NCBI RefSeq assembly: GCF_020731355.1
Contig: NZ_JAJFZK010000006.1
Coordinates: 248,001 to 312,000 of the forward strand
Source: Bacillus sp. REN16
GTDB taxonomy: Bacteria; Bacillota; Bacilli; Bacillales; Bacillaceae_L
Reading direction: 5' to 3'
Length of the DNA stretch: 64,000 bases
Position 1 is the stretch's first letter, and each line of letters opens with the position of its first letter. The position numbers were made by a program, and so were the translations under genes. The notes below the pieces were generated by a model that did not search any database, was not told the origin of the DNA, and was given only the letters and a program-made list of their open reading frames with translations. Below are positions 4,250-23,641 of the stretch, piece by piece.

Positions 4250-4987
4250 TCATGAATGGTAGGTCTGATCAAACATTTCCTGTGTAAAATCATCCGGCTT
4301 TCCGTCAAAAATGATTTCCCCTTTTTTTAGGGTAATCAGTCTTGTTGCAAACTGTTTAGCAAGGTCCACATCATGAAGATTTATTACGGATAAAAGTCTG
4401 TGACGGTCATGTAATTCTTTGAGTAATGTAAAGATGCGATTGGAAGTTCCCGGATCTAAGCTTGCAACCGGTTCATCTCCAAGAAAAACACGTGGCTTTT
4501 GCAATAAGGCCCGCGCAATCCCTACACGTTGCTTTTGACCACCGCTCAAATGTTCAATCCGACGATTCTCAAATTCAGAAAGGCCCACAATATCCAAAAT
4601 ACGTTTTGCATTTTCAATTTCATCCTTAGAAAATATCCCAATCAAATTTTTCACCGAACTTCGATAGCCGAACATACCTGTTAACGTATTTTGTAAAACC
4701 GTCAAACGGGGAATCAGGTTAAAATGTTGAAAAATCATTCCGATTTCCCTTCGGATGAGGCGCTGTTGTTCCTTATTTTTATTTGTAAATGGTTCCCCAT
4801 TCCAATAAACTTCACCACTTGTTGGCTGCTGTAAGCCATTCATACAACGGATGAGCGTCGATTTCCCAGCTCCGCTTTTTCCGAGAACACAGACAAATTC
4901 ACCTTCATTCAATCTAAGATTAACAGATGAGAGAGCAGGGCGGTCTGTATTCGGATAATAGACAGTAACATCTGTTAATTTAATCAT
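4250..4987 (-). CDS. phnC: PhnC-type ABC transporter ATP-binding protein
   Basis: The ATPase of an ABC importer of the phosphonate family. Walker A (GKSGAGKST), the Q-loop region, the signature LSGGQKQR and Walker B (VFLGDEP) are all present, together with the family's closing H (NLHDVDLA). I prefer the ATG at 4987, which has GTGGAG about 9 nt upstream. The GTG at 5002 directly follows the phnE stop and has no good ribosome-binding site. It is the last gene of phnD-phnE-phnC. Members of this family import phosphonates, phosphite or related oxyanions, and substrate identity depends on the PhnD protein. Confidence 0.88.
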   Translation of the reverse strand: MIKLTDVTVYYPNTDRPALSSVNLRLNEGEFVCVLGKSGAGKSTLIRCMNGLQQPTSGEVYWNGEPFTNKNKEQQRLIRREIGMIFQHFNLIPRLTVLQNTLTGMFGYRSSVKNLIGIFSKDEIENAKRILDIVGLSEFENRRIEHLSGGQKQRVGIARALLQKPRVFLGDEPVASLDPGTSNRIFTLLKELHDRHRLLSVINLHDVDLAKQFATRLITLKKGEIIFDGKPDDFTQEMFDQTYHS

Positions 4988-5002
4988 TTCTTTGCTCTCC
5001 AC

Positions 5003-5758
5003 TTAAATCACCTTATTTCTGACATAGCTTCCAAATGAATCTACCAAAATCACAATAATCATGATTAAGAACACATCCAAAGAAACGGAAGAATATTGAA
5101 AACTTTTAAAATCATTAAAGAGACGTTGACCAATGCCGCCTCCACCAATAAAACCAAGAATGAGGGAGGTTCTGATCGCAACCTCAAAACGGTAAAAATA
5201 TTGGGACAAAACATTTGGCCAAATTTGTGGAAGAATGCTAAAAAGGGATGCCCACCAGTTTTTTGAACCAACTGCCCTCATGGCCTCGTGCGGACCAGGT
5301 TCTGCCGATTCAATCAGTTCAGAAATCAATTTTCCAAGAACTCCGATATTATGAAACATGATAGCTAGGACGGCAGGGAAGGGCCCAAGCCCCAACGCTG
5401 TTAATAATATTAAGCCGAATACAATTTCTGGAATAGATCGAACAAAGCTCATTAAAACCCTTGTAAAATTGAAAACAATTGCAGATGGTGACGTATTTTT
5501 GGCAGCTAGAAAACTAATCGATAAAGCAATAATAAGCCCAAAAACACTTCCTAAAAAAGCCATCGCAAGTGTCTCAGCACTATCCCTTAGCAACTGGGAC
5601 AAAGCTGAAAAATCCATAGGAAACCATTGTGAGAGGAAATCAATCATATTTCGAAAATCACGAAATTTTGAAAGATCAAATTCGGTTAATCTCATACTCA
5701 CAAACATCGCAAATACTAGAAGAACTACATAAAGGAAAGTAGCTCGTTTAAACCACAT
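5003..5758 (-). CDS. phnE: PhnE-type ABC transporter permease
   Basis: A 251-residue inner-membrane permease with about six predicted transmembrane segments. The ABC-permease cytoplasmic loop appears as EAMRAVGSKNWWASLFSILPQIWP, read in two parts around residue 165. It pairs with the PhnC ATPase encoded immediately downstream and with the PhnD lipoprotein encoded 11 bp upstream. A second hydrophobic region near the C-terminus ends in FGSYVRNKVI. The protein is a single permease and not a fused two-permease form. Confidence 0.86.
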   Translation of the reverse strand: MWFKRATFLYVVLLVFAMFVSMRLTEFDLSKFRDFRNMIDFLSQWFPMDFSALSQLLRDSAETLAMAFLGSVFGLIIALSISFLAAKNTSPSAIVFNFTRVLMSFVRSIPEIVFGLILLTALGLGPFPAVLAIMFHNIGVLGKLISELIESAEPGPHEAMRAVGSKNWWASLFSILPQIWPNVLSQYFYRFEVAIRTSLILGFIGGGGIGQRLFNDFKSFQYSSVSLDVFLIMIIVILVDSFGSYVRNKVI

Positions 5759-5769
5759 GACGATCAGCT

Positions 5770-6660
5770 CTATTCATTTATAATTCCTTGTTTTATAGCA
5801 GCCCGACGGATACTTTCATAGTCCTCATTAGAAGCTTCTGTAAATCCGCTGGCACCAAAAGCAGCTAGGATTTCTTCATCATCGATAGCTAAAAAGGCAT
5901 CCTTTAGTTTTTGAATGGTATCCTCATCCGTGTCTTTATGAACTGCCCATGGATATTGGAATAATTTTTCTGATTGCCAGATTGTTTTTATTAATGTGCC
6001 ATTAATTTTTCCTGACTCAACAAGCTGATTATAGATCGCACTATCAATGGCACCAGCGCCGACCTGTTGATTTTGAACAGCCAAGGCAGTTGCATCGTGA
6101 GACCCTGTATATCGGACAGATTTAAATTGGTTAACATCCTCAGATTCGAAAACTCCACGATCTTTTAGTTCAATAGAAGGGATGAGGGAACCTGATGTTG
6201 AGTTAATATCACCAAATGCAAAATCAATTTCCTTAGATTTTGCAACCAAATCTTCTATTGAATTTAATGGGCTATCTTTATGAGTGATGATATAAGAATG
6301 ATAGAATGGTTCACCGTCAATCAATTGCGTAATAATTGCTTTCGCCCCACTTTTTTCATGAGCTACTACATAGGTTAATGGACCAAAATATGCCATATCA
6401 ATTTTATTATAATTCATCGCTTCAACAACACCGTTATAATCAGGATACACCTCAACTGATACTTTACGGTTTAATTCCTTTGTTAAAATGGATTGAAGCT
6501 TATCCATAGCCGTTTCCATTTCACCAACCGTCTGGACAGGAATAACTCCGATTGTAAAAGGCTTTTCCTCCTCATTAATATTCTCATCAGCATTTGAACC
6601 GCATGCTGTTAGTAGTATGATAAAAACTAGCCAAATTGTATAAATCATTCTCTTTTTCAA
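5770..6660 (-). CDS. phnD: PhnD-like substrate-binding lipoprotein
   Basis: A substrate-binding lipoprotein of the PhnD / phosphate-phosphite-phosphonate family. The N-terminus is a lipoprotein signal with lipobox LLTAC, so the protein is anchored outside the membrane. The mature part contains the family features DMAYFGPLTYV and, later, GDINSTSGSLIPS, where the ligand-binding Ser/Thr residues sit. I choose the TTG at 6660, which has GAGG 8 nt upstream; a GTG at 6669 is possible. The PhnD fold binds phosphonates, phosphite (PtxB) or arsenite (AioX), so the ligand is open. The position next to selD makes a selenium oxyanion conceivable, but that is inference only. Confidence 0.82.
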   Translation of the reverse strand: MKKRMIYTIWLVFIILLTACGSNADENINEEEKPFTIGVIPVQTVGEMETAMDKLQSILTKELNRKVSVEVYPDYNGVVEAMNYNKIDMAYFGPLTYVVAHEKSGAKAIITQLIDGEPFYHSYIITHKDSPLNSIEDLVAKSKEIDFAFGDINSTSGSLIPSIELKDRGVFESEDVNQFKSVRYTGSHDATALAVQNQQVGAGAIDSAIYNQLVESGKINGTLIKTIWQSEKLFQYPWAVHKDTDEDTIQKLKDAFLAIDDEEILAAFGASGFTEASNEDYESIRRAAIKQGIINE

Positions 6661-6713
6661 AATAGACACCTCTTAAATCATATTGTTTTTGTTATTATTT
6701 CCTAACCACGTAA

Positions 6714-6737
6714 AAAGGACTCAGTTTCGAGTCCTTT
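6714..6737. terminator. Terminator of selD
   Basis: A perfect 9-bp stem (AAAGGACTC / GAGTCCTTT) with a 6-nt loop, followed on the minus strand by TTTTTACG. It overlaps the selD stop codon and separates selD from phnDEC, so the two units probably have separate transcripts with some read-through. Confidence 0.7.
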
Positions 6738-7788
6738 AAACTACCTTAATAAAACCGGGATTTTCGCTTGTAACTTCACCAATGATGCTCGCTTCTACAT
6801 TCTTTTCATGAAGCTCTAGCAACATTTTTTCGGCTTCAGCTTCCGGAACGGATACTAGGAGTCCGCCAGATGTAATCGCATCACATAAAATGAGTTGGTC
6901 AAGTTCGTCTAAATTAGAATTATAATCCACTCTGTCAGCAATCCAAGTATGATTTTTCTTTGTTCCACCAGGAACTACCTTTTGTTCAGCAAGCTCTTTT
7001 GTTCTTGGTAAAATAGGGACATTTGCAAACTGAATGGTCATCCCTACATTGCTTCCTTCAGCCATTTCCATTGCATGGCCAAGAAGACCAAACCCCGTTA
7101 CATCGGTACAGGCATGGACCTGATAGTTGTCCATTACCTCAGCAGCATTCTTATTCAATGTTGCCATGACTTCAGTTACTTTTTTAATATCCTCTCGTTC
7201 TAAAAGATCTCTTTTAATCGCTGTGGTTAAAATCCCAACACCGATCGGCTTCGTTAAGATAAGCCGATCACCCGGCTTAGCACCAGCATTTGCACGAATT
7301 CGATCTGGATGAACTGTACCGGTTACAGATAAGCCGAATTTCGGTTCTTTGTCATCGATGGAGTGACCACCGACTAATGAGGCACCTGATTCTCTCACTT
7401 TTTCACCAGCACCCGCTAGAATCTCCGCTAAAATACTTTTATCCAAAGTATTGATAGGGAAGGCAACGATATTCATTACCGTAATTGGCTTTCCTCCCAT
7501 TGCATAGACATCACTTAGAGCATTTGCAGCGGCAATTTGCCCAAACATATAAGGGTCGTCCACAATTGGTGTAAAAAAGTCCAGTGTTTGCACAAGTGCA
7601 AGCTCATCATTGATTTTATATACTCCTGCATCATCAGGGGTATCGAGACCAACTAATAGATTTGGATTTGGTGTAGCTTTCGGCAAATGACGCAGAACCT
7701 GCGTCAGGTCCTCAGGACCGATTTTGCATCCTCAGCCAGCTTTTGTTGAAAGGGAGGTTAATTTAATGATTTCTTCCTTCTTAGACAT
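6736..7788 (-). CDS. selD: Selenophosphate synthase, selenoprotein form (UGA = Sec19)
   Basis: SelD makes selenophosphate, the selenium donor for Sec-tRNA, from selenide and ATP. Uninterrupted translation gives only a 316-residue protein from a TTG at 7686, missing the catalytic loop. Reading through the TGA at 7732-7734 restores it: from the ATG at 7788 (GGAG 8 nt upstream) the protein is 350 residues and contains KAG-U-GCKI. This aligns with AGCGCKI of E. coli SelD, whose Cys17 and Lys20 are catalytic. The TGA therefore replaces the catalytic Cys codon. Downstream motifs DDAGVY, TLDFFTPIVDDPY, GGHSID and DVTGFGLLGHA are standard. A perfect hairpin lies 25 nt downstream of the TGA. The tRNA-Sec gene is immediately upstream on the same strand and selB is divergent. 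Confidence 0.95.
7688..7719 (-). promoter_or_regulatory. Candidate bacterial SECIS hairpin(s) in selD
   Basis: In transcript order after the TGA come a small hairpin (GGTCC-TGA-GGACC, 7707-7719) and then a perfect 8-bp stem with a 3-nt loop (TGACGCAG-GTT-CTGCGTCA, 7688-7706). Bacterial SECIS elements are hairpins within the coding region just downstream of the UGA and are bound by the SelB C-terminal domain. Which of the two stems SelB recognises is not clear. The first lies 12 nt after the UGA, the spacing most like known elements. Their presence inside coding sequence supports recoding. Confidence 0.65.
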
Positions 7789-7836
7789 CAACATCACTCC
7801 TTCCACATTATTTTATATCAAATTTAATATCAATAT

Positions 7837-7934
7837 TGGCGGGACTGTGTGGGAATCGAACCCACCGGAGACGACACGCGCCTCCCTTACGGGTTTTGAA
7901 GACCCAGGGGGACACCAGCACCCCAGCCAACCCC
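7837..7934 (-). tRNA. selC: tRNA-Sec (anticodon TCA)
   Basis: A 98-nt selenocysteine tRNA with encoded CCA. Reading the minus strand, the anticodon loop is CT-TCA-AA on a 5-bp stem (TGGGT/ACCCG). It has a long variable arm with a 7-bp stem (GGAGGCG / CGTCTCC), and a T arm GTGGG-TTCGATT-CCCAC followed by ACAGTCCC-G-CCA. The acceptor 5' strand is GGGGTTGG, which pairs over seven positions with two G-U wobbles; position 8 is an apparent G-A mismatch. The D stem starts GGGG and closes with CCCC. The gene lies 48 bp upstream of the selD start and is probably co-transcribed with it. Confidence 0.93.
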
Positions 7935-7951
7935 AATATAGAACAACTTTC

Positions 7952-7981
7952 ATTATAAACAGTAAACTCTTTTATAGGCAA
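7952..7981 (-). promoter_or_regulatory. Sigma-A promoter for tRNA-Sec / selD
   Basis: On the minus strand, TTGCCT (7976-7981) is separated by 18 bp from a consensus TATAAT (7952-7957). The tRNA 5' end follows 17 bp after the -10 box, placing the start a few bases before the mature tRNA. In the same divergent gap, TTGAAT (7998-8003) with TAAAGT (8022-8027, 18-bp spacer) could drive selB, but this is weaker. Confidence 0.65.
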
Positions 7982-8068
7982 ATAATAATCATCAAGCTTG
8001 AATTATTCACATTCAAACTAGTAAAGTAGATAGAAGAAAAGACGGAAAATAACGGGGAGGTGGCAGGC

Positions 8069-9952
8069 ATGACAGAAGCATTTTATACGATCGGAATGGC
8101 TGGTCATATTGATCATGGGAAAACAACATTAACAAAGGCATTAACTGGTGTTGATACCGACCGATTAAAAGAAGAAAAAGAACGCCAAATCTCAATAGAA
8201 CCAGGCTATGCGCCCCTAAAACTTGATAACGGAATCCATATATCCATAGTAGATGTACCGGGACACGAACGTTTTATTCGGCAAATGATAGCTGGCGTTG
8301 CCGGGATCGACCTTGTGTTACTTGTGATAGCTGCTGATGAAGGAGTCATGCCACAAACATTGGAGCACCTTCAGATTTTGAAATTTTTAGGGATTAAAAA
8401 ATGTATGGTCGTCATTTCGAGGATTAGCAGAGTAGAGGAAGATCTACTTGAGCTTGCTGCTGAAGAAATAAAAGTAGTATTGGCAGATACAGAATATAAT
8501 GATGCACCGATTCTTTATGTTGATAGTCTTACGGAAAAAGGGATACCGGAACTAAAGCAAGCTATTCAAAAGGAAATCATAGGTCTCGAACAAAAAGATA
8601 GCACTGGCGCATTTCGATTACCAATTGATCAGGCCTTTTCGGTTCAGGGACATGGAACAGTTGTAAGAGGAACCGTTTTTGAAGGTATGGTGAATAAGGA
8701 CAGTTCGCTAACACTTTTACCATCAGGGCAAAAAATAAAAATTCGGCAAATCCAAGTCCATAATCACGAAACAGAAAAAGCACAAGCAGGGCAAAGAGTT
8801 GCGCTAAACATTACCGGGGCTACAAAGGATGAAATAAAGCGTGGTGATGTACTTGTGGATTCAGAAAACTTCCAGGTGACGAGCACGATAGATATTGCTC
8901 TGCAGCTTGTTTCAACACTTGCGACTCCACTTAAGCAGCGCTCACCCGTTAAGCTGCATATTGGAACGAGTGAAGCTTACGGAAAAATTGTCTTTTTTGA
9001 TCGAAAAGAAGTTAAAGAATCGGCTAATGAAATACTTTGCCAGATTCGCTTGGAGGAAGAAATTGTTGTACGGCGAGGGGACAGGTTTATTTTACGCAGA
9101 CCTACTCCGGTTGAAACGCTAGGCGGGGGATGGATTATTCAACCTCAAGCGCAGAAGTACCGTTTTGGTGAAGAAACAATTTCTATGCTCAAGAAACAAT
9201 TAAAGAGTTCCCCTGCCGAAATTATAGATAACTTGCTGATTAAGAAGCAACAATTATCAAAACTTCAGCTGATTCAGATTTCTTCATTACAAGAGGATGA
9301 AGTAAACGAAATTATTAATGGTGGCCTTAGAACGGGTAAGTACGTTAAAATCACTAAACAAGTATATTGTTTAAAAAGAACGATTCTTAAAATCAATGAA
9401 GAGATATTAAACAAATTAACAGGGTATCACGAAGGATTTCCATTACGAATTGGCATGAGTAAAGCCGAACTTCTACAAGCCCTTGGTCAAAATAAAAATT
9501 TAATTGAGTATTGTATAGATGAGTTGCTGCAACTCGATAAAATAACGAAAGTAGATCAATTTTTGGCGGTATCAAATTTTAAGCCTAGCCTTCCAAATGA
9601 ATCGATGGAGATCATTGTTTCGTCACTGAGGAATGACGGCATCCAACCCCAAAAATGGGCTGATTATATCAAACATGGTAGCCTCTCTAAACAAGCATCA
9701 AATGAGCTCAAAAGTTACCTGCTTAAAACAAATCAAGCATTTATGCTTAATGAAGATACACTGATTTACAAAAATGCATTTGACAAAGCTGTTGTTGAAT
9801 TACAAGCAAAAACCGATGAAAATTTTAGCTTGTCAGAGGCAAAAGAAATCCTATCTCTTTCTCGTAAATATCTCATACCCTTCTTGGAGTTACTGGATTA
9901 TCACCAATACACAAGACGAGAAGAAGGAAATCGAGTATGGATCAATAAATAG
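8069..9952 (+). CDS. selB: Selenocysteine-specific elongation factor SelB
   Basis: SelB is the GTPase that delivers Sec-tRNA to UGA codons carrying a SECIS hairpin. The N-terminal G domain shows G1 (GHIDHGKT, residues 12-19) and G3 (DVPGHE, about 62-67). EF-Tu-like domains 2 and 3 follow ([12 protein letters not shown]). The C-terminal region of about 270 residues is the winged-helix array that binds the SECIS RNA. The ATG at 8069 is chosen because GGGGAGG lies 8 nt upstream. Length (627 residues) matches family norms. The odd point is G4: where TKxD/NKxD is expected, the frame reads SRIS (residues 117-120). The gene is divergent from tRNA-Sec/selD. selA is not in the window. Confidence 0.92.
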
Positions 9953-15691: not shown

Positions 15692-17104
15692 ATGTCTAAG
15701 CAACAAATTGGTGTAGTTGGTTTAGCAGTAATGGGTAAAAACTTAGCGTTGAACATAGAAAGCAGAGGATACTCTGTAGCTGTTTTTAACCGTTCATACG
15801 AAAAAACAGAAGAGTTCCTTCAAAATGAAGCAGTCGGCAAAAACTTTGTTGGTGCCAAGACAATAGAGGAATTTGTTAATTCTCTAGAAAAGCCACGCAA
15901 AATTTTATTAATGGTTAAGGCTGGTCCAGCAACTGATGCAACAATTGATTCATTAAAGCCATATCTTGAAGAAAATGATATTTTAATTGATGGTGGTAAT
16001 ACATTCTTCCAAGACACAATTCGCCGAAACAAAGAATTGGAATCTACTGGTATCCACTTCATTGGTACTGGGGTTTCTGGTGGTGAAGAGGGAGCATTAA
16101 AAGGACCTTCAATCATGCCTGGCGGACAAAAAGAAGCCTACGAGCTTGTCAAACCAATCTTAACCGCAATTTCTGCAAAAGTATCAGGAGACCCTTGCTG
16201 TACATATATCGGACCAAATGGTGCTGGACATTACGTTAAAATGGTACACAATGGTATTGAATATGGAGATATGCAATTAATCTGTGAAGCGTATTTTATC
16301 CTTAAAAATGTATTAGGTTTAAGCACAGATGAACTTCATGAAGTATTTGCTGAATGGAACAAAGGTGAACTAGACAGTTACTTAATTGAAATTACAGCAG
16401 ATATCTTCACTAAAAAAGATGAAGAAACTGGTAAACCACTTGTTGACGTTATCCTTGACACTGCTGGTCAAAAAGGAACTGGTAAATGGACTAGCCAAAA
16501 TGCGTTAGATCTAGGTGTTCCACTACCAATTATTACTGAGTCTGTATTTGCTCGTTTCATCTCAGCAATGAAAGATGAACGTGTGAAAGCTAGCCAGGTT
16601 CTTTCAGGTCCATCTGCACAAGGTTTTGATGGAGATAAACAGGAACTTATTGAAGCAGTACGTAAAGCACTTTACTTAAGTAAAATCGTTTCATATGCAC
16701 AAGGCTTTGCACAAATGCGTGTCGCTTCTGAAGAATATGACTGGAATTTAAACTACGGTGAAATTGCAATGATTTTCCGTGGCGGGTGTATCATTCGTGC
16801 AAAATTCCTACAAAACATTAAAGAAGCATATGACCGTGACCAACAACTAGCTAACCTATTATTAGATCCTTACTTCAAGGAAATTGCAGAAGGTTACCAA
16901 GATTCTTTACGTAAGGTTATTTCAGTTGCCATTGAAAAAGGAATTCCGGTTCCATGTTTCTCAAGTGCAATTGCATACTATGACAGTTATCGTACTGCAA
17001 CATTACCTGCAAACCTTCTTCAAGCACAACGCGATTACTTTGGTGCGCATACTTACCAACGTGTTGACAAAGAAGGAATCTTCCATACAAACTGGATGGA
17101 ATAA
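15692..17104 (+). CDS. gndA: 6-phosphogluconate dehydrogenase (decarboxylating)
   Basis: Converts 6-phosphogluconate to ribulose 5-phosphate, CO2 and NADPH. The N-terminal Rossmann domain starts with [16 protein letters not shown]. The family signature is [11 protein letters not shown], and catalytic residues lie in the [11 protein letters not shown] and [13 protein letters not shown] segments. Length (470 residues) is that of the long GndA type; NADP is the usual cofactor. The gene is monocistronic between a strong promoter and a terminator. Its neighbours downstream include gluconokinase, which produces its substrate, so the locus is coherent for gluconate use. Confidence 0.96.
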
Positions 17105-17114
17105 TTACTCTGTT

Positions 17115-17145
17115 GGGGTTTCAACATTGAAACCCCGGCTTTTAT
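17115..17145 (+). terminator. Terminator after gnd
   Basis: Perfect 10-bp stem GGGGTTTCAA / TTGAAACCCC with a 2-nt apex, followed by a T-rich tract. Confidence 0.8.
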
Positions 17146-17292
17146 TTGTAAGAATCTCATTTTTGATGTAAGGGATTACACATTTACACACAATTGGCTT
17201 CCGAAGGTTAAGTGCAAAAATAGAGACATCGGTTCTAAAAATGCGTAAACTGTTTTTAGATGATGGAAGTTTTAATAGAAGGGAGTCTTATC

Positions 17293-18561
17293 ATGGGTAT
17301 TCTCCAAGAGTTATTAAAGGATATTCCGGTTCCAAAAATGCTTAAAGTCAAACAGCATTTTGATGATTCTAAAGTTGAAAATCTTGTAGAAGATTTAACA
17401 AATAAATTACATCGGGAAGAAGTAAAACAAACCATTAAACCAGGCATGGAAATTGCAATTGCTGTGGGAAGTCGTGGAATTGATGCGTTAGTTGACCTTA
17501 CAAAAATAACTGTGCAATTTATTAAGGATATGGGCGGTAAGCCTTTTATTGTACCAAGTATGGGCAGTCATGGTGGCGCAACTGCTGAAGGTCAACGTGA
17601 TGTTTTAAAACATCTTGGTGTAACAGAAGAAAGTGTTGGCTGTGAAATACGTTCTTCGATGGAAGTTATTAAGCTGGGTGAACTACCAAATGGCTTACCT
17701 GTTTACATTGATAAATACGCTTCTAAAGCTGACGGAATTGTTGTTATTAATCGTGTAAAACCTCATACCGCTTTCCGTGGTTCTGTTGAAAGTGGAATCC
17801 AAAAAATGATTAGCATTGGTCTGGGTAAGCAAAAAGGGGCAGAGGCTTGCCATCAGTTAGGCTTCAAATACATGGCAGAAAATGTTCCCGCCATGGCACA
17901 AATGATTATGGAAAAAACACCGTTTCTTTTTGGCGTTGCAACTGTAGAAAACGCTTTTGATCGGGTGGCAAGAATTGAAGTTATGCTTACAAATGAAATT
18001 ATTGAGAAAGAACCTGAACTTCAAGCGCAAGCAAAACAATTACTACCTAAACTATTCTTTGATCAAATCGATGTTCTTGTCATTGATCAAATTGGTAAAA
18101 ACATTAGTGGGGACGGCATGGACCCTAATATTACAGGTCGCTATCCAACTCCATATGCACATGGCGGTCCTGAAGTGAACAAAATGGTTGTCTTAAACCT
18201 AACGCCGGAAACAGAAGGTAATGCGAATGGTGTTGGTACGGCCGATTTCACAACTCAGCGACTCGTTGACCAAATGGACCTTGAGTTCACATATGCAAAT
18301 GGATTGACTTCAACAGTGGTTGCGCCGACGAAAATTGCAACAACACTTCCAAATGATAAAGAAGCCATTCAAGCAGCCATCAAAACATGTAATATCTTAG
18401 ATTTTTCAACAGTAAAAATGGTTCGCATCAAAGATACACTGCATGTAAGTGAAATTGAAGTATCCGAAGCCTTATTAGATTACATCAAGAATCATCCAAA
18501 TATTGAGCAGGCATCAGACCTTTATGACTTCGATTTCAACGAAAACGGAAACTTATTTTAA
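17293..18561 (+). CDS. larA: LarA-family nickel-dependent 2-hydroxyacid racemase/epimerase
   Basis: A 422-residue member of the LarA (DUF2088) superfamily, whose members use the nickel-pincer nucleotide cofactor to racemise or epimerise 2-hydroxyacids. Residues equivalent to L. plantarum LarA His108, His174, Lys184 (cofactor anchor) and His200 can be placed at His93 (GSHGG), His158 (KPHTAF), Lys171 (IQKM) and His187 (ACHQ). The start is the ATG at 17293, with AGGGAG 7 nt upstream. The superfamily includes lactate and malate racemases and a D-gluconate 2-epimerase (GntE). Neighbouring gnd and gluconokinase favour a sugar-acid substrate, which is inference. Cofactor genes larE, larB and larC lie downstream. 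Confidence 0.85.
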   Translation: MGILQELLKDIPVPKMLKVKQHFDDSKVENLVEDLTNKLHREEVKQTIKPGMEIAIAVGSRGIDALVDLTKITVQFIKDMGGKPFIVPSMGSHGGATAEGQRDVLKHLGVTEESVGCEIRSSMEVIKLGELPNGLPVYIDKYASKADGIVVINRVKPHTAFRGSVESGIQKMISIGLGKQKGAEACHQLGFKYMAENVPAMAQMIMEKTPFLFGVATVENAFDRVARIEVMLTNEIIEKEPELQAQAKQLLPKLFFDQIDVLVIDQIGKNISGDGMDPNITGRYPTPYAHGGPEVNKMVVLNLTPETEGNANGVGTADFTTQRLVDQMDLEFTYANGLTSTVVAPTKIATTLPNDKEAIQAAIKTCNILDFSTVKMVRIKDTLHVSEIEVSEALLDYIKNHPNIEQASDLYDFDFNENGNLF

Positions 18562-18632
18562 CTGAATTTATTGGGGGAGAAATTCCTCTTTTCAGAATAA
18601 GTCTAATTACATATTGAAAAAGGGGAATAAAC

Positions 18633-19403
18633 ATGACTAACTTATTTGACTTAACTGGAAAAACAGCTGTAGCCATTGGCGGAAATAGTGTACTGGGTTC
18701 TTCAATCTGTAAAGGCTTTGCTGAACAAGGTGCAAAAGTAGCCATTGTTGGGCGTAACCTAGAAAGAGCAGAAGCAGTTGTTAAAGAAATTGAAGCAGAG
18801 GGTGGAGTTGCGAAAGCTTTCCCAGCAGACGTACTTAACCGTGAATCACTTGAAACTGCTGCACAAGAAATCACAGCATGGTCTGGCGGAATCGATATCC
18901 TTCTAAATGCTCCTGGTATGAACAGTCCAACTCCGTTCTTTGAGCTTGATATGGATGAATATGACAAAATCATGGATGTAAACCTTAAAGGATATGTTGT
19001 GGCAACTCAAATTTTCGCGAAGAAAATGATTGATCAAGGACGTAAAGGAAGCATTATCAATATTTCTTCTGTTTCATCTACAACACCACTATCTAAAGTA
19101 TTTACTTACTCAGTATCTAAAGCTGGCGTTAACAGCATGACTCAGTTCTTAGCAAGAGAATTCGCACCAAATGGAATTCGTGTCAATGCAATAATTCCAG
19201 GGTTCTTTCCAGCTGAACAAAACCGTAAAATCTTAAGTGAAGAGCGTGTAGCATCAATCATGGGACACACTCCAATGAATCGTTTCGGTAACCCTGATGA
19301 GTTAAAAGGAGCGGCTGTATTCTTAGCTTCAGAAAACGCTTCTAGCTTCGTAACTGGTACATTCATTCGAGTTGATGGCGGATTTGGAAGCATGACTATC
19401 TAA
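18633..19403 (+). CDS. SDR-family oxidoreductase, probable sugar-acid dehydrogenase
   Basis: A 256-residue classical short-chain dehydrogenase/reductase. The nucleotide-binding glycine motif is altered to GGNSVLGSS (residues 16-24), with the usual NVLNRE/DVLNRE acidic site downstream. The NAG motif reads NAPG. The catalytic tetrad includes Ser in NISSVSS and Tyr-x-x-x-Lys in YSVSK. The closing region PGFFPAEQNR is distinctive. It resembles SDRs that oxidise or reduce sugar acids (gluconate 5-dehydrogenase or fructuronate reductase type). It lies 71 bp after larA and could act on the epimerised product. The exact substrate is unknown. Confidence 0.8.
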   Translation: MTNLFDLTGKTAVAIGGNSVLGSSICKGFAEQGAKVAIVGRNLERAEAVVKEIEAEGGVAKAFPADVLNRESLETAAQEITAWSGGIDILLNAPGMNSPTPFFELDMDEYDKIMDVNLKGYVVATQIFAKKMIDQGRKGSIINISSVSSTTPLSKVFTYSVSKAGVNSMTQFLAREFAPNGIRVNAIIPGFFPAEQNRKILSEERVASIMGHTPMNRFGNPDELKGAAVFLASENASSFVTGTFIRVDGGFGSMTI

Positions 19404-19482
19404 AATAATCCTTCTGTTACATATTTTACCTGATATAAATAGATAGAGAACAATTACAACCGGGAAAGAAGGGGAGAAGACA

Positions 19483-20283
19483 ATGATCGACGAAAAGTAT
19501 CAAAAGCTAGTGTCAATTCTCCGAGAGATGGAATCAGTTGTCGTTGCTTTTTCTGGTGGCGTTGACAGTACCTTTTTATTAAAGGTTGCTGTTGACACAC
19601 TAGGGAAAGAAAATGTTTTAGCGGTAACTGCTGATTCAGAAACATATCCTTCAACTGAGTTAAAGGAAGCCGAAGTCCTTGCAAAACAGATAGGGGCCAA
19701 CCATCGTGTTATTGAAACATCGGAGCTAGCTATTCCTGGCTACACAGAAAATGATCGAAATCGTTGTTATTTCTGTAAGAGCAGTCTGTTTGATCATCTC
19801 ATTCCTGTTATGGAACGTGAGGGTTATCACAATGTTGTGTATGGCGTCATCGCGGATGATATGAATGAGTTTCGTCCAGGTATGAAGGCAGCCAAGGAAA
19901 AAGGAATTCGTGGTCCATTACAGGAGGCAAATCTTTTTAAAGATGAAATCAGGGAACTTTCCCGTGAATTTGATTTGCCAACTTGGAATAAACCATCATT
20001 TGCTTGTCTTTCATCTCGGATTGCTTATGGCGAAAAAATTACGATTGAAAAGTTAACAAAGGTTGAAAAAGCAGAGGAATTCCTTAAATCTCTTCAAATT
20101 CGTCAGGTTCGTGTTCGTACTCATCAAGATATTGCTCGGATCGAAGTTGAACCTAATGATATGAAAATTGTCTTAGATAATCATAAAGCCATTACAAAAG
20201 AACTTAATTCCATTGGCTATAAATATATAACTCTAGATTTAGTAGGTTACAAGAGTGGAAGTATGAATAAAGTCCTTTCTTAA
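19483..20283 (+). CDS. larE: LarE, sulfur transferase for nickel-pincer cofactor
   Basis: LarE inserts sulfur into the nicotinic-acid-derived precursor of the NPN cofactor in an ATP-dependent reaction. The PP-loop SGGVDST is at residues 24-30. Cys175 (SFACLSSR) matches the sacrificial Cys176 of L. plantarum LarE. Two further cysteines lie in RCYFC (95 and 98), giving a three-cysteine set as in the iron-sulfur type of LarE described from Thermotoga. Such a protein may use a [4Fe-4S] cluster and not lose its own sulfur. The ATG has GGGGAG upstream. A strong terminator follows, so larA-sdr-larE may form one unit. Confidence 0.88.
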   Translation: MIDEKYQKLVSILREMESVVVAFSGGVDSTFLLKVAVDTLGKENVLAVTADSETYPSTELKEAEVLAKQIGANHRVIETSELAIPGYTENDRNRCYFCKSSLFDHLIPVMEREGYHNVVYGVIADDMNEFRPGMKAAKEKGIRGPLQEANLFKDEIRELSREFDLPTWNKPSFACLSSRIAYGEKITIEKLTKVEKAEEFLKSLQIRQVRVRTHQDIARIEVEPNDMKIVLDNHKAITKELNSIGYKYITLDLVGYKSGSMNKVLS

Positions 20284-20285
20284 GC

Positions 20286-20320
20286 AGAAAAGCTTTGGAT
20301 TCTTTCCAAAGCTTTTTCTT
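20286..20320 (+). terminator. Terminator after larE
   Basis: A long stem GAAAAGCTTTGGA / TCCAAAGCTTTTTC followed by T residues. Confidence 0.85.
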
Positions 20321-20394
20321 TGAAAAGAATAATATGGTAACATTATGTCACAAACTAATAAAGTTATGATAGAACGTGAAAAGGAAGATGTAGT

Positions 20395-21867
20395 ATGTCA
20401 CATGAATACGTCATTGGTCTCGACCTTGGAACAACCAGTGCAAAAGCAGTTATTTTTACCTTAGATGGTAAGGTAGTTGCTGAAGCAGAGGATCTAGTTA
20501 CCTCTTACTACCCTAAGCAAGGTTGGGTTGAGCAAGATCCTGATGAAATTGAACGCTCTGCTGTAAAAGCAATCAATATGGCTATTCAACAGGCGAAAGT
20601 AAGTAAAGCGGAAATCATTAGCTTGGGTATTTCAGCTGCTATGCATTCCATCATTTGTATGGGGGATAATGGAGAAGCTCTTTCCCAAGCATTAATTTGG
20701 GCAGACGGCAGAAGTACAAAACAAGCAAATGAACTTTTGGAATCAGACGGACTTGACATTTTTTCAAGAACAGGGATGCCGATTCATCCAATGTCACCTT
20801 TATCAAAGTTTATTTGGATGAAGGAAATTGATTATATACCATATAGACAATCAAGCTATTTTTTATCCATTAAAGAATATTTGCTTTTAAAATGGTTTGG
20901 TCAGCGAGTAATTGATTATTCAGTGGCATCTGCAACAGGAATGTTTAATGGAAAAACATTTCAATGGGATGAAGAGGTGCTTAACAAAGCTGGTATCACA
21001 GAAGACATGCTTTCAAAAATCGTCCCACCAACTTACCAATTAACCGACATTAAACCAGCTATTGCTGATGAAATGGGAATTTCGAACGAAATGCCTTTTA
21101 TTATCGGTGCTGCCGATGGTCAATTTGCCAATTTAGGAATTGGAGCGATTTCTCCAGGGGAGGTTGCTGTTACAGCTGGTACAAGTGGAGCCATTCGCCA
21201 ATTTACAAAAGGATTCCAATCAAATAGAAAGCATGAAACTTTTTGTTATGCTTTTTCTGATGAATATTTTATTGTTGGCGGTCCAACGAATAACGGTGGA
21301 ATTGCCCTTCAATGGTTAAAAGAGCTGCTTAATTACCAAAAAAGCTTTGATCATTTTACTGCTGAGGCGGCAAAGGTTGGCCCTGGCGCTGAAGGTTTAT
21401 TTTTCCACCCATATATTAATGGGGAACGCGCTCCTTTGTGGAACCAACAAGCCCGTGGTAACTTCTTCGGTATGTCCGTTACTCATAAAACAGAGCACTT
21501 TGTTCGTGCCGTATTAGAGGGGATTACATTTAATCTATACCAAATCGGACAAGCATTAGAAAAACAAGCTGGAAAAACAGAAAAGCTTTATGTAAACGGT
21601 GGATTAGCACGTTCACCATTGTGGCTTCAAATGCTTGCTGATATTTTTGGTAAAGAGGTTTATGTCCCGGAAAGCCATCACAGTGCGGCTTGGGGCGCAG
21701 CTTGGACCGCATTAGTAGGCATCGGTAAAGTGAATTCCTTTGAAGAGATCAAGAACAATATCCCAATGGGAGAGCCTGTTTTACCAAATAGCGAAACCCA
21801 TGAGAAATACAAAGCTATATACGCAAAATATGAAGCAATTGGAAAAGATATTATCAAACATTTCTAA
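20395..21867 (+). CDS. gntK: Gluconokinase (FGGY family)
   Basis: A 490-residue FGGY carbohydrate kinase. Motifs are GLDLGTTSAKAVIF at the N-terminus, the substrate-side MHSIICMG and WADGRS, then GTSGAIRQ and GGPTNNGG. The C-terminal ATP-binding region has NGGLARSPLWLQM. These features, especially GMPIHPMSPLSK and the GGP(V/T)NNGG block, match B. subtilis GntK and not xylulokinase or glycerol kinase. It phosphorylates gluconate to 6-phosphogluconate, the substrate of the gnd product encoded 3 kb upstream. It sits between two terminators and is probably monocistronic. No gntR or gntP is in the window. Confidence 0.87.
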   Translation: MSHEYVIGLDLGTTSAKAVIFTLDGKVVAEAEDLVTSYYPKQGWVEQDPDEIERSAVKAINMAIQQAKVSKAEIISLGISAAMHSIICMGDNGEALSQALIWADGRSTKQANELLESDGLDIFSRTGMPIHPMSPLSKFIWMKEIDYIPYRQSSYFLSIKEYLLLKWFGQRVIDYSVASATGMFNGKTFQWDEEVLNKAGITEDMLSKIVPPTYQLTDIKPAIADEMGISNEMPFIIGAADGQFANLGIGAISPGEVAVTAGTSGAIRQFTKGFQSNRKHETFCYAFSDEYFIVGGPTNNGGIALQWLKELLNYQKSFDHFTAEAAKVGPGAEGLFFHPYINGERAPLWNQQARGNFFGMSVTHKTEHFVRAVLEGITFNLYQIGQALEKQAGKTEKLYVNGGLARSPLWLQMLADIFGKEVYVPESHHSAAWGAAWTALVGIGKVNSFEEIKNNIPMGEPVLPNSETHEKYKAIYAKYEAIGKDIIKHF

Positions 21868-21873
21868 AATATA

Positions 21874-21903
21874 AGCGTCAGTTTGATACTGACGCTTTAC
21901 TTT
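21874..21903 (+). terminator. Terminator after gntK
   Basis: Perfect 9-bp stem AGCGTCAGT / ACTGACGCT with a 5-nt loop, then a T-rich tract. Confidence 0.8.
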
Positions 21904-21911
21904 AGGTATAC

Positions 21912-21929
21912 ATCGATTTTGAAATCGAT
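21912..21929. promoter_or_regulatory. Palindromic operator candidate upstream of larBC
   Basis: A perfect 18-bp palindrome with halves ATCGATTT and AAATCGAT around TG, ending 15 bp before the larB ATG and adjacent to its ribosome-binding site. A cre site was considered, but the last conserved C is missing. Confidence 0.45.
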
Positions 21930-21944
21930 TAAGGTGTGTGAAAC

Positions 21945-22706
21945 ATGGTAGAAGAAATCTTAGAGCAGGTCAAACAAGGAACATTAAGTATAGTGGATGC
22001 TAAAAAACAACTTGCAACCTATGAAAATTTAGGATTTGCAAAAATTGACCATCATCGAAAAAATAGACAGGGTTTTCCTGAAATTGTTTTTGGAGAGGGC
22101 AAAACGAAGGAACAAATTCACTCGATCATTAATATAATCAAAAAGCGTGGAGACAATGTCCTTGTTACCCGAATTTCTAAAGAAAAAGCAGATTTTATTT
22201 TGAAATTAAACCCAGAGTTTGTATACAATGAAACAGCTCGGGTTCTATATTGGAAAGATGAGACAAGGGGAAATACGCAAAGGAATGGCTATATCGCAAT
22301 TGTATGTGCAGGAACCTCTGATCTACGAGTAGCTGAAGAGGCCGCTATAACAGCTGAAGTTCTAGGCAGTAATATTCGTCGTTTCTATGATGTAGGTGTT
22401 GCCGGCATCCATCGTTTATTTGATAACATTGAGGAGATTCGAAATGCAAATGTGTCAGTTGTTGTCGCTGGCATGGAGGGGGCTTTACCAAGTGTAGTCG
22501 GTGGACTTGTTTCTCATCCGATTATCGCAGTCCCAACAAGTATCGGTTATGGGGCAAATTTTCAAGGGCTATCAGCTTTACTTACAATGCTGAATTCCTG
22601 TGCATCTGGAATTAGTGTCGTAAATATCGACAACGGTTTCGGTGGTGCATACAACGCAGTCTTAATTGATCAACTTGCCCAAAAAGGAGAGAATCAGACT
22701 AAATGA
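21945..22706 (+). CDS. larB: LarB, NPN cofactor carboxylase/hydrolase
   Basis: LarB carboxylates nicotinic acid adenine dinucleotide and hydrolyses its phosphoanhydride, the first step to the nickel-pincer cofactor. The C-terminal half is a PurE-like fold, visible as IVCAGTSDLRVAEEAA followed by VVVAGMEGALPSVVGGLV and PTSIGYG. Length is 253 residues. The gene overlaps larC by 4 bp (ATGA), indicating translational coupling. It follows a terminator and an 18-bp palindrome, so larBC appears to be a separately controlled unit from larA-sdr-larE. Confidence 0.92.
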   Translation: MVEEILEQVKQGTLSIVDAKKQLATYENLGFAKIDHHRKNRQGFPEIVFGEGKTKEQIHSIINIIKKRGDNVLVTRISKEKADFILKLNPEFVYNETARVLYWKDETRGNTQRNGYIAIVCAGTSDLRVAEEAAITAEVLGSNIRRFYDVGVAGIHRLFDNIEEIRNANVSVVVAGMEGALPSVVGGLVSHPIIAVPTSIGYGANFQGLSALLTMLNSCASGISVVNIDNGFGGAYNAVLIDQLAQKGENQTK

Positions 22707-23599
22707 AAACACTATATTTTGACTGTTTTTCCGGAATTAGTGGAGACATGGTCATTGGAGCATTACTTGATGCAGGTGGAGACCCACAAAATCTTGTTCA
22801 GGAATTAAAAAAGCTGCATTTTGAAGATGAATATGAACTACAATGGAAAAAAGTCGTGAAAAACGGAATCACCTCCACGAAATTTGATGTCATTTTAAAA
22901 GATGATAGTCATAGGCACTCACATACACATGATCAGCACCATGAGCATACTCATGACCACCATCATGATCATGAACACGAGCATCATCATGATCACCATC
23001 ATAATCATGAACTTGAACACGATCATTTACATACACATGATCATGACCATCAGCACAATGTGCATACTCATGACCATCACCACCATCATTCACATCGTGC
23101 TTATACGGATATTGTGAAGATGATTGAGGATTCCGAATTAGCACCTGAAGTTAAGGATATATCACTAAAGATTTTTAGGAAAATTGGAAAAGCTGAAGGT
23201 CTTATACATGGACTTCCATTAGAAAAAGTTCATTTCCATGAAGTAGGTGCTGTTGATTCTATCATCGATATTGTCGGAGCAGCTATATTATTACATCAGC
23301 TGGAAATTTCAACGGTAAAATCATCTGCTGTACCAGTTGGAACCGGAAAAATCCATATTGACCATGGAATTTATCCGGTTCCGGCTCCTGCTACGCTTGA
23401 AATATTAAAAGGAGTGCCGATTGAACAGAGTGATATTCGCTTTGAACTTACGACACCAACGGGAGCAGGTATTATCTCCGTGCTTACAGATGAATTTTGC
23501 AGTTTTCCTTCAATGAAGGCCTCAGCAATTGGTTACGGAGCAGGCACAAAAACGTTTAAAGATCGCCCAAATGTTCTACGTGTCATCGTTGGAGAATAG
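22703..23599 (+). CDS. larC: LarC nickel insertase, N-terminal (LarC1) form with His-rich insert
   Basis: LarC inserts nickel into the pincer nucleotide in a CTP-dependent reaction. The N-terminus MKTLYFDCFSGISGDM is the family hallmark. Residues 70-131 hold 35 histidines interspersed with Asp/Glu, a likely nickel store. Later motifs KVHFHEVGAVDSI, VPAPATLEIL and TTPTGAGI are intact. The protein ends (RPNVLRVIVGE) where L. plantarum LarC1 meets LarC2, whose junction there depends on a programmed frameshift. No LarC2-like sequence follows in any plus-strand frame before a terminator 11 bp later. It is therefore a short form (298 residues), or its C-terminal part is encoded elsewhere. Confidence 0.88.
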   Translation: MKTLYFDCFSGISGDMVIGALLDAGGDPQNLVQELKKLHFEDEYELQWKKVVKNGITSTKFDVILKDDSHRHSHTHDQHHEHTHDHHHDHEHEHHHDHHHNHELEHDHLHTHDHDHQHNVHTHDHHHHHSHRAYTDIVKMIEDSELAPEVKDISLKIFRKIGKAEGLIHGLPLEKVHFHEVGAVDSIIDIVGAAILLHQLEISTVKSSAVPVGTGKIHIDHGIYPVPAPATLEILKGVPIEQSDIRFELTTPTGAGIISVLTDEFCSFPSMKASAIGYGAGTKTFKDRPNVLRVIVGE

Positions 23600-23609
23600 C
23601 CTTTTATCT

Positions 23610-23641
23610 AGTCCTCACTATAATGTGGGGACTTTTTTTTT
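23610..23641 (+). terminator. Terminator after larC
   Basis: Stem AGTCCTCAC / GTGGGGACT (one wobble) followed by nine T. Confidence 0.88.

Follow-up and report, generated by a model that had tools for sequence, protein, structure and literature searches.

We analysed a stretch of 64,000 nucleotides from Bacillus sp. REN16 (contig NZ_JAJFZK010000006.1, positions 248,001 to 312,000; hereafter the window), and in it a gene cluster at window positions 15692-23599 that contains a homologue of the nickel-pincer enzyme LarA. A previous reading made from the sequence alone had placed gnd and a gluconokinase gene among larA, a short-chain dehydrogenase/reductase (SDR) gene, larE, larB and larC; all seven open reading frames (ORFs) were confirmed in that order, intact and on the forward strand. 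The features of the cluster are:

15692..17104, + strand: gnd, 6-phosphogluconate dehydrogenase (decarboxylating); 797 bits, cut-off 413
17112..17139, + strand: terminator-like hairpin between gnd and larA22; 12-pair stem with T tail
17167..17180, no strand: candidate operator TGTAAGGGATTACA; pattern TGTAA-N4-TTACA
17293..18561, + strand: larA22, nickel-pincer isomerase group 22, 422 amino acids (aa), proposed D-mannonate/D-gluconate 2-epimerase; NF052515 566 bits, cut-off 400
18633..19403, + strand: SDR, proposed fructuronate reductase; PRK08277 D-mannonate oxidoreductase 282 bits, cut-off 281
19483..20283, + strand: larE, sulfur insertase; TIGR00268 370 bits, cut-off 150; CxxC-C motif
20395..21867, + strand: FGGY kinase, proposed gluconate (or mannonate) kinase; best model gluconokinase TIGR01314, 487 bits
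21945..22706, + strand: larB, cofactor biosynthesis; NF033503 305 bits, cut-off 175
22703..23599, + strand: larC1 only, with His-rich linker; TIGR00299 217 bits, cut-off 90
23610..23633, + strand: terminator-like hairpin ending the cluster after larC1; 9-pair stem, then T run

The LarA homologue passes the NF052515 model (nickel pincer cofactor-dependent isomerase, group 22) and is called LarA22 below. Its start is probably at 17293 rather than at 17260, where the longest ORF begins, because the MGILQ start is preceded by a GGAG-type site and is common to the aligned relatives. The outcome that would have refuted the sequence-only reading, a place among true lactate racemases, did not arise: lactate racemase identity was ruled out (NF033504, 18 bits, cut-off 460), as was malate racemase identity (two models, 21 and 28 bits, cut-offs 462 and 500). 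In the LarA22 alignment and tree (76 of 96 proteins, left after a 93% identity filter), R72, H104, H169, K182, H198 and K280 (433-aa numbering) are invariant in all 76 rows, and they match the LarA set H108, H174, R75, K184, H200 and K298 by motif (catalytic His pair, Arg and Lys binding the nickel-pincer nucleotide (NPN), Ni-ligand His and catalytic Lys), the two His also by alignment with 2yjg. The mechanism described for the family is a transient C2 oxidation by the nickel-pincer cofactor, with two His acting as acid/base (PMC7583248, PMC11770544). A Gly immediately precedes the catalytic Lys, as in GntE2 of Thermotoga maritima (GntE2 residue from PMC7583248; structure 4NAR); after the second His there is Thr-Ala in LarA22 versus Glu-Ser in GntE2.

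Neither the LarA22 protein nor the 76-row profile matched the GntE chains of the PDB at E up to 10, and a detectable sequence kinship to characterised GntE (LarAH groups 19 and 20) is not supported. The gluconate/mannonate epimerisation previously suggested for this protein stands in part: the proposed chemistry is well supported by the comparative genomics presented below, but not as a relative of the characterised GntE groups. "Group 22" and "LarAH22" have zero mentions in the main texts of PMC7583248, PMC11770544, PMC12611868 and PMC11796402, and no assayed member of nickel-pincer isomerase group 22 was found in the open-access literature searched. In the same literature, with subscription journals mostly uncovered, no paper paired nickel pincer with glucuronate isomerase or fructuronate, lactate racemase with uxaC, or DUF2088 with a gluconate operon.

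The window SDR is 41-43% identical to SDRs adjoining uxuA in four of five loci. The FGGY kinase is the top gluconokinase-like protein of the host genome (489 bits; runner-up 296), and its best PDB match is the gluconate kinase 3gbt/3ll3 (E 1.9e-84; next 1.6e-51). Searching the host genome for gnd gave a full match at 473 bits and a partial one at 85 bits, the window gnd being the only full-length copy found. LarE carries the CxxC-C motif (C95, C98, C175) as in T. maritima LarE, where it binds a [4Fe-4S] cluster (PMC9283937); the NCBIfam label "sacrificial" is therefore probably wrong for the window protein.

Genomic link to uronate isomerase

The host genome (G000; 73 contigs, rated 100% complete) has the glucuronate isomerase gene uxaC, and neither mannonate dehydratase (UxuA) nor altronate dehydratase was detected in it, so the window cluster is the only outlet found there for the UxaC product. 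In a survey of 396 genomes of the order, in which a larA22 orthologue was defined by at least 68% identity (all other matches are at most 56%, except a 72-residue fragment in G277 at 69%, put under "other"), uxaC was over its cut-off in 36 of 36 orthologue holders versus 88 of 360 other genomes (Fisher 1.3e-20, which ignores kinship). The 36 holders span 15 genera by hand count. Genomes with distant group 22 copies only have uxaC in nine of 42 cases, indicating no link. Of the 36 holders, 19 lack full UxuA, as do 18 of the 88 genomes with uxaC but no orthologue, so the route proposed below could replace UxuA in about half of the holders, coexisting with it in the rest. The survey drops four genomes with sub-cut-off uxaC matches (G125, G152, G181, G224) and 13 genomes with partial or weak UxuA matches, the sole orthologue holder among the latter being G326, whose inclusion gives UxuA in 18 of the 36 holders.

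Relatives (the best 80 of at least 584 from a profile search of genome contigs) were sorted by identity and context into our own groupings, clades A, B and C; L105 falls outside all three. Clade A comprises 32 loci (30 named ones plus G014 and G015) and includes Neobacillus, Mesobacillus, Niallia, Oceanobacillus, Virgibacillus, Gracilibacillus, Domibacillus and several Paenibacillus. Its loci contain the SDR (29/32), larE (26/32), larB (25/32), the kinase (24/32), larC2 (23/32), larC1 (20/32) and gnd (15/32), and 15 of the 32 have uxaC within 10 kb, on the larA strand every time. The loci L035 and L037 of G014 and G015, which belong to another genus, each hold a single run, uxaC-larA22-SDR-larE-FGGY-larB-larC1-larC2, and gnd is close by. 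The 19 loci of clade B come mainly from Paenibacillus, at 61-67% identity; all 19 carry the SDR, 18 the kinase and 16 gnd. Clade C (30 loci, 52-62% identity, 28 of them at 59% or less) has no SDR (0/30); an IlvD/Edd-like dehydratase is present in 21 loci and an aldolase of the 2-keto-3-deoxy-6-phosphogluconate (KDPG) type in seven. In the tree, the window lies in a 31-row clade (support 100/99) with 29 SDR-bearing rows, and L106 and L110, assigned to clade C, fall among clade B rows.

Distant group 22 copies (L036, L038, L117-L138) recur by 736-aa-type IlvD/Edd-like dehydratases, tripartite ATP-independent periplasmic (TRAP) transporters and KDPG-type aldolases, hinting at an epimerase that would act before a dehydratase. 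The host itself has a second group 22 LarA (540 bits; L006 3837-8549, G000:C8) behind a TRAP transporter. With it are genes for a 2-hydroxyacid dehydrogenase, for a KDPG-type aldolase and for an RraA-like protein, and one whose product was read as DgoK-like (no NCBIfam match); this is probably another sugar-acid pathway. In L043 (G011:C3 388206-391195) a group 22 paralogue is in two pieces in different frames.

The gene annotated before as larC does belong to the LarC family, but it encodes the LarC1 part alone (PF01969 positions 1-234 of 375), LarC2 being on another contig. The host LarC2 is a separate ORF (G000:C29:3096-3515; 149 bits, cut-off 50), so that both LarC parts are present in the genome, not in one polypeptide. 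This larC2 lies directly downstream of uxaC (657 bits, cut-off 387), with a LacI-type regulator gene ahead. Within the family, LarC2 occurs in ten of 17 genomes, exactly the ten with a group 22 LarA. The seven other members of the genus that hold larA22 all have larC2 apart from larC1, with uxaC immediately upstream of larC2 in five of them and 12-16 kb from it on the same contig in G011 and G012; the simplest account would be a joint relocation of uxaC and larC2, in the window genus, out of a run of the G014/G015 type. Clade A has larC1 and larC2 as distinct ORFs, with a ribosome site for larC2 itself in both junctions read (L067, L071), versus LarC ORFs of fused length (416-528 aa) in seven other loci, and the split therefore looks like a feature of clade A rather than damage. 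A larC broken inside the window with its other half downstream was ruled out, since the terminator-like hairpin directly follows and the clade A relatives have separate ORFs. L. plantarum joins LarC1 and LarC2 by a frameshift; we infer that the separate polypeptides work together, and separate genes would be useful for dissecting nickel insertion. The LarC1 linker has 34 His in residues 71-135 of 298 (window 22910-23105) and perhaps serves nickel binding.

The seven-gene block is retained in seven of seven other same-genus genomes holding larA22, indicating that the gene association is not due to chance; the eighth other member, G008, has no group 22 match in its genome. The arms of the hairpin between gnd and larA22 are present in eight of eight aligned genus members, and the terminator-like hairpins after gnd and after larC1 indicate that the cluster is probably more than one transcript. 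Regarding regulation, the pattern TGTAA-N4-TTACA, a candidate operator, gave a raw count of 19 matches in 99 stretches (1.905 Mb), 11 of them at most 600 bp upstream of larA22 (nine) or uxaC (two). The window genus accounts for six of these 11 (window, L028, L031-L034); the remaining five precede larA22 in L061, L064 and L077 and uxaC in L068 and L076. The pattern would thus link larA22 and uxaC to one candidate site type across species, not within the host genome. L079 has a further site between the larA22 operon and an opposite-strand ORF of 399 aa, the same length as ROK-type regulators (ROK by Pfam for the L035 protein). The host uxaC sits behind the LacI-type gene with AACGTT-like repeats, judged by eye. 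Two other searches were at chance level: the ACATCGRTTYTRAAA repeat before larA and larB (3 matches, 2.73 expected) and CcpA-type sites (7 matches, 5.5 expected). The first ORF of the larA22 operon of Compostibacillus humi (L079, about 9437-9852) resembles methylglyoxal synthase by eye, and L080 and L085 have ORFs of similar length at this position. A transketolase gene directly follows the operon in L063 (16998-19019, Pfam on the protein), as does an ORF of equal length in L066 (13690-15711); the L063 transketolase is in keeping with a flow into the pentose-phosphate pathway.

Proposed glucuronate route and alternatives

We propose, with a probability of about 0.6, that the cluster encodes the lower half of a pathway that breaks down glucuronate and ends in ribulose-5-phosphate via a mannonate-to-gluconate step of LarA22; the presence of uxaC in the same gene run in relatives is what would make the cluster a glucuronate route. 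UxaC, encoded elsewhere in the genome beside larC2, would convert D-glucuronate to D-fructuronate, which the SDR would reduce to D-mannonate. LarA22, with a nickel-pincer cofactor built by LarB, LarE and LarC1 plus LarC2, would then invert C2 to give D-gluconate; the FGGY kinase would phosphorylate this to 6-phosphogluconate, and Gnd would decarboxylate the latter to ribulose-5-phosphate and CO2. The epimerase route would substitute for UxuA, and carbon would enter the pentose-phosphate pathway, not the branch of 2-keto-3-deoxygluconate (KDG) and KDPG. All these reactions, and their order (reduction, epimerisation, phosphorylation), are inferred. The sequence-only reading had GntK and Gnd draining gluconate; the kinase scores under the gluconokinase cut-off (648.55). 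What that reading overlooked is the likely purpose of the genes, the glucuronate route through uxaC.

More tentatively, at somewhat under even odds, many Bacillales genera would have a second, independently recruited nickel-dependent glucuronate route, in which a group 22 LarA takes the place of UxuA, carrying mannonate, or the corresponding keto or phosphorylated compound, over to the gluconate series by epimerisation, with LarC split in two genes, one of them moved beside the uronate isomerase in the window genus. If true, the position of larC2 beside the uronate isomerase could make the final assembly of the nickel cofactor dependent on glucuronate being present. The proposal offers a testable function for a LarA group for which no assay was found, would explain glucuronate use in Bacillales having UxaC but no UxuA, and would mean that a mannonate-to-gluconate link like that of Thermotoga also exists on a LarA branch lacking detectable sequence similarity to GntE. 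The route would be redox-neutral to ribulose-5-phosphate, a property called interesting for engineering by Valk 2020 (PMC6978723).

Several observations weigh against the glucuronate route. The gnd gene has its own terminator and is the only full copy of the genome, so its place at the cluster may be housekeeping. The SDR passes the PRK08277 cut-off by one bit only, and the kinase remains below that of TIGR01314. The residue three before the conserved Arg of LarA22 is Val in 73 of 76 rows, and no equivalent of LarA Asp72 could be placed. Clade B has uxaC within reach in none of its 19 loci; L075 and L078 have neither SDR nor kinase near larA22, and L073, L074 and L076 have no kinase there. Among the 36 orthologue holders, 17 also carry full UxuA, and 18 genomes have uxaC but neither the orthologue nor full UxuA; among these G008 was followed, and an altronate dehydratase adjoins its uxaC. 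Finally, the host larA22 palindrome has no match in L005, and no operator common to the cluster and the host uxaC-larC2 was found.

The order of the reactions could differ. Fructuronate is 5-dehydro-D-mannonate, and its C2 epimer is 5-dehydro-D-gluconate; LarA22 might therefore act on fructuronate, and the SDR might be a gluconate 5-dehydrogenase reducing the product to gluconate, an order we consider rather unlikely. The SDR scores do not decide cleanly between the two activities. The window SDR reaches 217 bits on gluconate 5-dehydrogenase (PRK08213), under the cut-off of 279 and above two UxuA-linked SDRs (163 and 158), and its score on D-mannonate oxidoreductase is far below theirs (451 and 462); moreover, the PDB gives two matches for it at E up to 1e-40, and one of them (1vl8) bears the name gluconate 5-dehydrogenase. 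Nevertheless, PRK08277 still outscores the other SDR models on the window SDR and on all three SDRs scanned from the clades (L062, 292 bits, over the cut-off; L092, 264, and L107, 275, under it), and the assayed gluconate epimerases work on mannonate/gluconate (PMC7583248, PMC11770544). Phosphorylation might also come first, the FGGY protein being a mannonate kinase and LarA22 a 6-phosphomannonate 2-epimerase, comparable to activities in L. suebicus extracts. The sub-cut-off score of the window-type kinase favours this unlikely order; however, of four relatives' kinases scanned on TIGR01314 (L107 520, L115 539 and L062 486 bits fail), the one from L092 in clade B exceeds the gluconokinase cut-off with 675 bits. 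Its gene lies next to an epimerase and an SDR of the same type, which points to gluconate as the product of the epimerase step, judged from this one scanned protein, and the assayed LarA enzymes act on unphosphorylated 2-hydroxy acids (PMC7583248, PMC11770544).

It is likewise improbable that LarA22 uses another sugar acid or 2-hydroxy acid served by its neighbours, the uxaC link reflecting a shared habitat or regulon. The varied neighbours of distant group 22 members (the dehydratases and KDPG-type aldolases of clade C, the KDPG-aldolase cluster of the host's second copy) suggest that substrates vary within the group, and genomic context is described as not always predictive of LarA activity (PMC7583248). 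On the other hand, clades A and B keep the SDR with larA22 in 48 of 51 loci, mostly the kinase and gnd too, and the uxaC link is true of the orthologue and untrue of the distant copies, both of which argue against another substrate.

Elsewhere in the window there is a selenocysteine locus (4250-9952) with a selD-like AIRS protein gene (6736-7686, - strand), a tRNA-Sec (7841-7934, - strand; Rfam RF01852, 58.6 bits) and selB (8060-9952, + strand). A phosphonate-type ATP-binding cassette (ABC) transporter (4250-6669, - strand) adjoins selD and might import a selenium compound.

Comparison with known systems

The lactate racemase operon resembles the window cluster in its larB, larC and larE cofactor genes and, by motif, in the His pair, Lys and Ni-ligand His of the enzyme; unlike it, the window has LarC as two genes and sugar-acid enzymes adjoining. 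The canonical UxaC-UxuB-UxuA-KdgK pathway shares UxaC and the UxuB-type SDR with the proposed route, in which the epimerase, kinase and Gnd would replace UxuA, KDG kinase and KDPG aldolase. The galacturonate route of L. suebicus described by Valk 2020 (PMC6978723) has a 6-phosphomannonate 2-epimerase, its genes unidentified in that account. Like this route, the one proposed here would join the upper uronate-isomerase steps to 6-phosphogluconate and be redox-neutral to ribulose-5-phosphate; unlike our proposal, L. suebicus phosphorylates before epimerisation, and the words "LarA" and "racemase" are absent from the text of PMC6978723.

A close likeness is with T. maritima, where gnd-uxaRED-gntEK is described as lying in the UxaR regulon (PMC3750489) and GntE2 (LarAH group 20) as shown to convert mannonate to gluconate (PMC7583248), the original proposal being that of Rodionova 2012, as cited by others. 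As in the window, gnd, a reductase, an NPN-type 2-epimerase and a gluconate kinase are found together, in T. maritima in uronate catabolism (PMC3750489, PMC7583248). The two systems differ in that the window LarA belongs to group 22 and matched none of the GntE chains in the PDB, and that the window cluster includes the cofactor genes; UxuA was not detected in the host, whereas the T. maritima control genome has it in the same search. The best reading is that the window route would work like the Thermotoga GntE route on a different LarA branch.

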